From contig NZ_SLVX01000002.1 of the NCBI RefSeq assembly GCF_004341885.1, forward strand, positions 1 through 64,000: DNA of 64,000 bases, read 5' to 3'. The notes beneath the pieces are model-generated. The model saw only the letters and a list, made by a program, of their open reading frames with translations. It made no database searches and was not told the DNA's origin. The position numbers and the translations under genes are program-made. The stretch comes from Shinella granuli. Its GTDB lineage: Bacteria > Pseudomonadota > Alphaproteobacteria > Rhizobiales > Rhizobiaceae. Below, piece by piece: positions 8,396 to 44,234 of the stretch; position 1 is the stretch's first letter; each line of letters opens with the position of its first letter.

Positions 8396-8472
8396 TGGTC
8401 GGAGTGGAGTGATTCGAACACTCGACCCCCACGTCCCGAACGTGGTGCGCTACCAGACTGCGCTACACTCCG
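8396..8472 (-). tRNA. tRNA-Pro (anticodon CGG)
   Basis: Read on the minus strand the cloverleaf is complete. The acceptor CGGAGTG (8472-8466) pairs with CACTCCG, followed by A and encoded CCA. The anticodon stem CCACG/CGTGG carries the loop TTCGGGA, giving anticodon CGG, and the T arm is GAGTG-TTCGAAT-CACTC. Its 3' end points at the integrase, so it is the likely attB/attR site of the element; the tRNA remains intact. Confidence 0.95.
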
Positions 8473-25001: not shown

Positions 25002-25010
25002 AACCGCGTG

Positions 25011-25066
25011 GGATGGGGATGGAGCTCCCCGACAACTGCCGTGTGACCGGCTGATAGCTCCTGCCA
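25011..25066 (+). ncRNA. fluoride riboswitch (crcB motif)
   Basis: The conserved elements of the fluoride aptamer are present in order: GGGGATGGAGCTCCCC (25015-25030, the P1-loop stem with GATGG), AACTGCC (25034-25040) and GGCTGATAGCTCCTGCC (25049-25065). It lies between a promoter and a terminator hairpin upstream of crcB. Fluoride binding would prevent termination and switch on the exporter. Confidence 0.88.
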
Positions 25067-25110
25067 AGACCGGCCAGCGATGGCCGTCGACGGCGGGAGC
25101 GTGTTCTGCG

Positions 25111-42960: not shown

Positions 42961-43003
42961 CGTGCCGTGCGGGTGGATCCTCGGGTCGAGCCCGAGGATG
43001 ACG
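42961..43003. repeat. intact 43-bp half palindrome (reference copy for the IS target)
   Basis: The unit is an exact reverse complement of the sequence obtained by joining 43085-43113 to 44221-44234, so it preserves the uninterrupted form of the IS110 target. It belongs to the CGTCATCCTCGG family. Confidence 0.9.
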
Positions 43004-43084: not shown

Positions 43085-43113
43085 CGTCATCCTCGGGCTC
43101 GACCCGAGGATCC
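43085..43113. repeat. left part of the palindrome broken by the IS element
   Basis: These 29 bases end in GGATCC at the left junction of the IS110 element. The remaining 14 bases of the unit (ACCCGCACGGCACG) lie at 44221-44234 on the far side. Together they rebuild the 43-bp copy at 42961 exactly in reverse orientation. Confidence 0.9.
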
Positions 43114-43282
43114 TGTGTGTTTGCGCTGATGTAAGATGGTTGCGGGAAGGAGGCCGAGAGGATCCAGGCCGCCGTTTGTGACGGCAGGCCGCGACGTGGC
43201 TTGGTCCCTTCCCGCTTCGCCCATCAACCTGAACAGTTGCACGGGGCTGTCGCCACAGACCCCGCACACAGGAGCAGGCGCC
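43114..43282 (+). ncRNA. predicted bridge RNA of the IS110 element
   Basis: Two stem-loops are seen. The first is closed by GCGGGAAGG (43142-43150) with CCTTCCCGC (43207-43215) and contains AGGATCC (43159-43165), identical to the left target, and GTGG (43196-43199), complementary to CCAC at the right target. The second is closed by CCTG/CAGG (43228-43231, 43269-43272) with a cap hairpin CGGGG...CCCCG. It contains ACAGTTGC (43233-43240), identical to the right element end, and CACACAGG (43265-43272), complementary to the left junction CCTGTGTG. This is the guide layout of known IS110 bridge RNAs. RNA ends are not determined. Confidence 0.7.
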
Positions 43283-44209
43283 ATGACGATACACCATACC
43301 TTCATCGGCTGCGACATCGGCAAGGACATGATCGACATCTTCGATCCGCGAACGGCCAGGTTCTGCCGCATCCCCAATGACGAAGCGGCGCTGTCGACCT
43401 TCGCGCACCGTCTCGACCCGGCCACCGACCTGGTCGTCTTCGGGGCGACAGGCCATTGCGACCGGCTGTTGCGCCTGTGTCTTTCGCAGGCCGGCATCGC
43501 CTTTGCCCGCGTCAACCCGAAGACGGCCCGGCGCTTTGCCGAAGCGCGGGGACGGCTGGCCAAGACCGATCGCATCGATGCCCGCTCGCTTTGCGAGATG
43601 GGCGCCATGTTCGGCCTGACGGCCGAGGCGCCGCCTTGCCCGGTCCGCGAGCGGCTGGCGGCCCTTGCCCGCCGCCGGGATCAGCTCGTCGATGCCCGCG
43701 CAACCGAGCGCAGGCATCTTTGCGATGCCTTCGATCCCGCCATCCGCGCCGACATCGAGACCATGATCGCCATCCTCGGCGAGAAGATCGCCTCGATCCA
43801 GGCCGAGATCGACGACCACATGAAGAGCCAGGCCCTCACCGAACACGCCCATCGCCTCACCTCCGCCCCCGGCGTCGGCAAGGTGACGGCCTTGACCCTG
43901 CTGGCCCATATGCCCGAACTCGGCGCCCTCTCGCCCAAGGCGGCGGCAAGCCTTGCGGGCCTTGCTCCCTTCAATGACGATTCCGGCAAGAGATCCGGCC
44001 GACGCCGTATCAAGGGCGGCAGGCCACGCGTGCGAAAGGCCCTCTACATGGCGGCCCTCGGCGCCATCAAGGCCTCAGCGCGCCTGCGTGCCTTCCATCA
44101 AGCCGTCTCGGCCAGGACAGGATCGGCAAAGGCCGGCATCATCGCCGTCGCAAGGAAGCTCCTCACAATCCTAAATGCAATGCAGCGCGACAAAACTCAC
44201 TTCGCATGA
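43283..44209 (+). CDS. IS110-family transposase
   Basis: The 308-residue recombinase has the N-terminal RuvC-like DEDD domain (GCDIGKDMIDIFD near 8-20; LAKTDRIDARSL near 94-105) and the C-terminal Tnp domain with HRLTSAPGVGKVTALTLLAHMPELG (about 190-215), ASLAGLAPFNDDSGKRSGRRRIKGG and the region around SARTGSAKAG that carries the catalytic serine in this family. It is shorter than many IS110 enzymes but shows no frameshift. GGAGC precedes the ATG. It works with the bridge RNA made from the 5' end. Confidence 0.93.
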   Translation: MTIHHTFIGCDIGKDMIDIFDPRTARFCRIPNDEAALSTFAHRLDPATDLVVFGATGHCDRLLRLCLSQAGIAFARVNPKTARRFAEARGRLAKTDRIDARSLCEMGAMFGLTAEAPPCPVRERLAALARRRDQLVDARATERRHLCDAFDPAIRADIETMIAILGEKIASIQAEIDDHMKSQALTEHAHRLTSAPGVGKVTALTLLAHMPELGALSPKAAASLAGLAPFNDDSGKRSGRRRIKGGRPRVRKALYMAALGAIKASARLRAFHQAVSARTGSAKAGIIAVARKLLTILNAMQRDKTHFA

Positions 44210-44220
44210 ACACAGTTGCC

Positions 44221-44234
44221 ACCCGCACGGCACG
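44221..44234. repeat. right part of the palindrome broken by the IS element
   Basis: ACCCGCACGGCACG is the missing 14-base end of the interrupted 43-bp repeat. It lies 52 bases before the exonuclease start codon, so the IS sits in the upstream region of that gene. Confidence 0.9.

Follow-up and report, generated by a model that had tools for sequence, protein, structure and literature searches.

The 5' noncoding end of an IS110-group element in Shinella granuli encodes, with a probability that we put at about 94%, a bridge RNA that guides this element, with transcription, binding, and catalysis extrapolated from IS621. The element occupies positions 43112 to 44220 of the window (the whole stretch of 64,000 nucleotides that was analyzed) and is sited within one arm of a REP-like palindrome. 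Its ends, its core, the empty site, the RNA structure, and the covariation of guides with sites are observed in the sequences compared. In the proposed mechanism, the bridge RNA would be encoded in the 5' noncoding end of the element, and the target would be the end of a REP-like repeat. The second loop of the RNA would pair with the junction (ACAGTTG-CC-TGTGTG) at which the two ends of the element meet in the excised circle, and strand exchange at the core by the recombinase would leave CC on either side of the inserted element. An earlier note on this DNA had proposed the guide logic of IS110 bridge RNAs, same-sense on the left and complementary on the right, in both loops. The covariation of guides with flanks and of donor guides with element ends supports this proposal.

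The junctions were determined from a natural allele without the element in Shinella yambaruensis (locus L178, sequence GAGGATCCACCCGC). The DNA that flanks the element in the window is uninterrupted in that allele, GACCCGAGGATCCACCCGCACGGCACGCC, and is split in the window into GAGGATCC, the element, and CCACCCGCACGG. The left and right flanks overlap on the empty allele by exactly two bases, CC, and the core is therefore CC, giving an element of 1107 bp with one core counted. The core is duplicated by the insertion, with the right copy at 44219 to 44220 (forward strand) and the right target half, ACCCGC, after it, and the element lies between both cores at 43114 to 44218 (forward strand). There are no terminal inverted repeats and no further duplication. 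The noncoding left end is long, with 169 bases left of the gene, and 9 bases separate the right core from the stop codon. One full-length copy is present in the window's genome, and a megablast search of the element against plasmids gave no match.

The left target half, AGGATCC, ends a REP arm at 43085 to 43113 (forward strand), with the left core CC at 43112 to 43113. The other arm of the REP-like palindrome, at 42975 to 43003 (reverse strand), is an intact copy of the target-bearing repeat that matches 43085 to 43113 at 100% when reversed, and together with its preceding bases it constitutes the same target in reverse orientation. The genome contains 60 exact GAGGATCCAC sites, compared to 2 for the reversed control pattern.

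The gene at 43283 to 44209 (forward strand) encodes an IS110 recombinase of 308 amino acids with the DEDD RuvC-like and Transposase_20 domains, with PF01548, PF02371, and NF033542 above their cutoffs. Its best solved relatives are ISCro4 and IS621. The catalytic set is incomplete: D11, D96, D99, and S234 are kept, and a glycine at residue 54 replaces the DEDD glutamate. A glutamate is aligned at this position in 79 of the 82 homologous loci, the exceptions being the window (Gly), L032 (Ala), and L023 (not covered), and it is present in the S. yambaruensis recombinase. According to the available text on IS621, D11, E60, D102, D105, and S241 are all required, and mutating any one of them abolished recombination (PMC11208158). 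Since the catalytic glutamate is missing, the window copy is probably an immobile relic, inactive unless the glycine is a sequencing error. We infer that recombinase activity was lost after the insertion. The presence of a single copy despite 60 exact target sites fits an inactive enzyme, and a recent arrival explains it equally well.

The claim of two stem-loops in the 5' noncoding end held over 18 homologous element ends, across which the stem-loops are conserved and covarying. The alignment of the 5' ends of these 18 related elements (A2) has 31 consensus pairs, 18 of which are changed on both sides. Six of the 31 are in reality pairings between the left element end and the right donor guide, and the 25 that remain form two stem-loops with internal loops. 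Over these 25 pairs and 18 elements, 96.0% of the cells are paired compared to 80.3% in shuffles (0/500 as high), 71 cells are changed on both sides compared to 19.4 (0/500), and the covariation score is 0.503 compared to 0.194 (0/500). The number of pair types over the 25 pairs was not above that of the shuffles (32 versus 29.9; 88/500). Sliding by one column cut the pairing to 53% or 50%, and covariation was also above that of the slid versions. Helix 4 (2 of the 25 pairs) joins bases of the left and right target guides, which may be a sign of half-palindromic targets and not of structure. In the window, the target-binding stem-loop lies at 43142 to 43215 (forward strand), and its loop 1 is closed by an outer stem of GCGGGAAGG (43142 to 43150) with CCTTCCCGC (43207 to 43215), a covarying helix with 99% of cells paired. 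The donor-binding hairpin GGGGCTGT...ACAGACCCC lies at 43243 to 43263 (forward strand) and corresponds to helix 6, with 93.7% of cells paired.

The strand at 43114 to 43282 folds at -80.6 kcal/mol (z, -3.05), an energy reached by 1 in 200 shuffles. When this sequence is folded by itself, the minimum-energy structure contains both the loop-1 and the loop-2 hairpin, but in addition the left element end is paired with the right donor guide; the two-loop form derives from the 18-sequence alignment. No bridge RNA model reached the Rfam gathering threshold in the window. The matches at gathering score in the window were a fluoride riboswitch at 25006 to 25070 (forward strand) and a tRNA at 8399 to 8472 (reverse strand).

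The earlier note had taken all of 43114 to 43282 as RNA, of which 43114 to 43142 is probably element end and promoter instead. A -10-like hexamer, TAAGAT, is located at 43132 to 43137 (forward strand), 17 bp from a -35-like TTGCCT that forms only on joining of the right and left ends in the circle; its putative promoter function is suggested by consensus scoring over 20 elements. In the joined ends, the best choice of spacing between TTGCC and the -10-like hexamer is 17 bp in 18 of the 20 elements and 18 bp in 2, and the mean -10 score with extended TG is 4.25 compared to 2.27 for shuffled ends. From the position of TAAGAT, the RNA is predicted to begin at about 43144, where the target-loop stem has its base. 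Such a start, predicted from a consensus match, would leave no room for a 5' stem-loop of the kind that precedes the target loop in the IS621 RNA of about 177 nt, as given in the available part of PMC11208160. Transcription from the circle junction, binding, and catalysis would occur in this system by analogy with IS621.

The left target guide AGAGGATCC (43157 to 43165, forward strand; core included) matches its own flank at 8 of 9 positions, in the register that peaks over 20 elements. AGGATCC in loop 1 (43159 to 43165) is directly readable as the AGGATCC of the left flank (43107 to 43113), as had been claimed. The right target guide is GACGTGG (43193 to 43199, forward strand), with a match of 4 of 7 in the window, and only GTGG pairs with CCAC here. 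The claimed complementarity of GTGG (43196 to 43199) to CCAC (44219 to 44222) is present, but as a single match it is no evidence: in 20,000 dinucleotide shuffles of 43114 to 43282, used as the chance background for guide matches, GTGG occurred in 81%, and the match is therefore credible only via the relatives. In the same shuffles, AGGATCC occurred in 0.6%, the left donor guide ACAGTTGC in 0.9%, the right donor guide CACACAGG in 0.5%, and all three together in 0/20,000. The guide extents first proposed were corrected in that the core CC belongs to each guide and the right target guide pairs over a length that differs between elements, from about 4 in the window to about 10 in G148.

We compared target guides and flanks across elements. 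There were 82 loci with tblastn matches, of which 27 were inspected, mostly the best-scoring ones with a recognizable donor motif, and the test set of 20 elements comprised 18 of these 27 plus G020 and G148. L011 (right end off the contig), L144 (end pattern failed), and L135, L172, L139, L016, L141, L040, and L176 (another core, or ends missed by the CC patterns) were omitted; L013 and L173 are duplicates of L012 and L071. Element ends were located by the elements' own end motifs, the RNA alignment was built without flanks, and G-T was scored as half in the guide-flank match. For G020 and G148, the left and right flanks came from different copies, with one right flank chosen of 13 and of 11, respectively. 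The left guide (9 nt) matched its own left flank at a mean of 7.775/9, compared to 4.99 (standard deviation [SD], 0.35) with swapped flanks, and the right guide (7 nt) matched its own right flank at 5.35/7, compared to 3.76 (SD, 0.24), with 0/50,000 permutations in both cases. With the core bases removed, the means were 5.975/7 and 3.6/5 (0/50,000 each), and the result was still 0/50,000 for the 15 elements left after removal of the poly-C group. The own flank was best or tied for 15/20 left guides and 11/20 right guides. With a one-base shift, the means fell to 5.32 and 4.68 for the left guide and to 3.08 and 2.80 for the right guide, both guides peaking exactly in register, and a free search gave 0/20,000 for the left guide and 10/20,000 for the right guide. 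Weak fits were found for L169 (6.5 and 4), the right side of five poly-C elements (2.5 to 5), and the right guide of the window (4/7), and L206 also fits poorly.

The target guides thus covary with the target, and the loop-1 guides differ between elements along with their targets, a behavior that the earlier note had proposed to look for among copies. Among close relatives, the right guide and flank pairs are GTGG/CCAC in the window, CTGG/CCAG in G020, and ATGG/CCAT in L010, and the left pairs are AGGATCC with GAGGATCC in the window and AGAATCC with GAGAATCC in G020. If the protein alone chose the target, the loop matches would have arisen incidentally, from shared ancestry, GC-rich composition, or the palindromic REP, and it is true that several elements have GC-rich repeats with common motifs such as CCGG as targets and that related elements have guides in common (the left guide is identical in L170, L169, and G148). 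However, flank swaps among the same related elements destroy the match, and copy L076 of S. yambaruensis still matches its guide even though it sits at GCGAAGGATCC and the 120 bases read on this side contain no REP arm. We consider selection by the protein alone very improbable. It is even less probable that the structured 5' end, which lies directly upstream of the recombinase start codon, is mainly an mRNA leader controlling recombinase expression and not a guide, because covariation with flanking host DNA is unexpected of a leader, although leader and guide roles could coexist.

L171, L071, L137, L012, and L138 form a subgroup that inserts in C runs and whose left guide is a C run. Their right guide misfits the flank in the register of the other elements, and their core or register may therefore differ. 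Self-target avoidance, in which the bases after the left guide would mismatch the right guide, was not supported among the 15 elements remaining without the 5 poly-C ones (own, 1.13; permuted, 1.26; 2,036/20,000 as low).

A multicopy test, in which the copies of an element are compared with its guide, covers six elements, and left flanks scored at least 7.5/9 in 33/34 copies, one of which, L208, is at a sibling's guide (G211, S. yambaruensis, 6/6; G020, 13/13; G148, 1/1; G413, 5/5; G446, 4/4; G334, 4/5). The right flanks started with CC in 43/44 copies, with scores from 3.5 (L119, CT) to 7. In G148, GCCT follows the fourth base in 11/11 right flanks, in agreement with the prediction from its longer guide CGAGGCTTGG. 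The earlier note had singled out copies at sites with no match to AGGATCC as evidence against its reading; in the closest relative, the S. yambaruensis copies (pieces 90 to 97% identical), AGGATCC is present in 6/6 left flanks. Their right flanks, with guide GTGG, are CCAC (two), CCAT (three), and CCAG (one), the fourth base being loosely held.

Both donor guides were found where the earlier note had placed them in loop 2. The left donor guide ACAGTTGC (43233 to 43240, forward strand) equals the right element end (44212 to 44219), and the right donor guide CACACAGG (43265 to 43272, forward strand) is the reverse complement of the left junction CCTGTGTG (43112 to 43119), with compensatory changes in A2 columns 2, 4, and 6. 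The left donor guide was compared with right ends over 55 nonredundant elements (74 with both sides, of the 82 loci). The mean longest word shared with the element's own right end was 7.27 nt, compared to 5.93 (SD, 0.16) when swapped (0/20,000), and a clear match was absent in 15/55 elements. ACAGTTGC, ACGGATAC, ACAGTCGC, and ATGGTTGCT each match inside their own element. The donor guides thus covary with the element ends; the earlier note had proposed to test whether loop-2 guides stay fixed among copies, and between elements they change with the ends.

Insertions related to this system were also seen in other genomes. A poly-C-targeting IS110 copy (L138, about 1288 to 2560 of G279:C4) lies within the bridge RNA gene of a sibling, interrupting its left target guide. 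The 5' part of the sibling stops at 1341, and past the insert (about 2446 onward) its sequence continues with the loop, the donor guides, and the start of the gene. As the same-sense left guide plus the core would itself be half a target, elements may sometimes insert in a sibling's guide. The left junction of L208 (G334) is likewise at a sibling's guide, but on the right it is not flanked by the remainder of the guide loop. L054 (about 1490 to 1760 of G207:C2), in a further genome of the genus, is a degenerate copy of the same element in which the bridge RNA region is kept and the recombinase is cut short and joined to the right-hand repeat DNA. In L088 (G020:C38), about 32 nt where the bridge RNA region begins are duplicated in tandem; the duplication is located at a contig end and is thus possibly an assembly artifact. 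We suggest tentatively, and with considerable doubt, an alphaproteobacterial branch with a shortened bridge RNA starting at the target-loop stem, a CC core, a right guide pairing over about 4 to 10 nt, and occasional insertion in sibling guides as a hazard inherent in bridge RNA systems.

With these elements, bridge RNA guidance can be checked cleanly on natural insertions beyond the model elements, since small guide changes track changes of insertion site. The multicopy relatives are compact test systems, and in the window copy a guide RNA of normal appearance is combined with a recombinase that is probably inactive. The literature already covers bridge RNAs and the logic of their guides, the core CT in IS621, and the targeting of REP sequences (PMC11208160, PMC11208158, PMC11187229, and PMC1525189, as far as their available text goes), and the element is a further case of the known IS110 bridge RNA system; among the open-paper titles listed in literature searches, none concerns a Shinella bridge RNA. 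In the available sections on IS621 (PMC11208160 and PMC11208158), the similarities are a DEDD recombinase of the same family, a bridge RNA in the left end with two internal loops, guides that are same-sense on the left and complementary on the right with the core included, a -35/-10-like junction promoter, and REP targets. In contrast to IS621, the core is CC here rather than CT (PMC11208160), the predicted RNA would begin at the target-loop stem with no room for a 5' stem-loop, and the window copy is without the catalytic glutamate (PMC11208158). By description rather than by sequence, the element resembles ISEc21 (IS110 type), in which the upstream noncoding region yields a target-selecting seekRNA, unlike the IS1111 elements, which carry the seekRNA region downstream of the gene (both from the available text of PMC11187229). 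Similarly, ISPpu9, ISPpu10, ISPa11, and ISRm19 are IS110 elements inserted specifically in REP sequences, described in 2006 without guides in the available text of PMC1525189, and by that description rather than by alignment they are like the element in the window.
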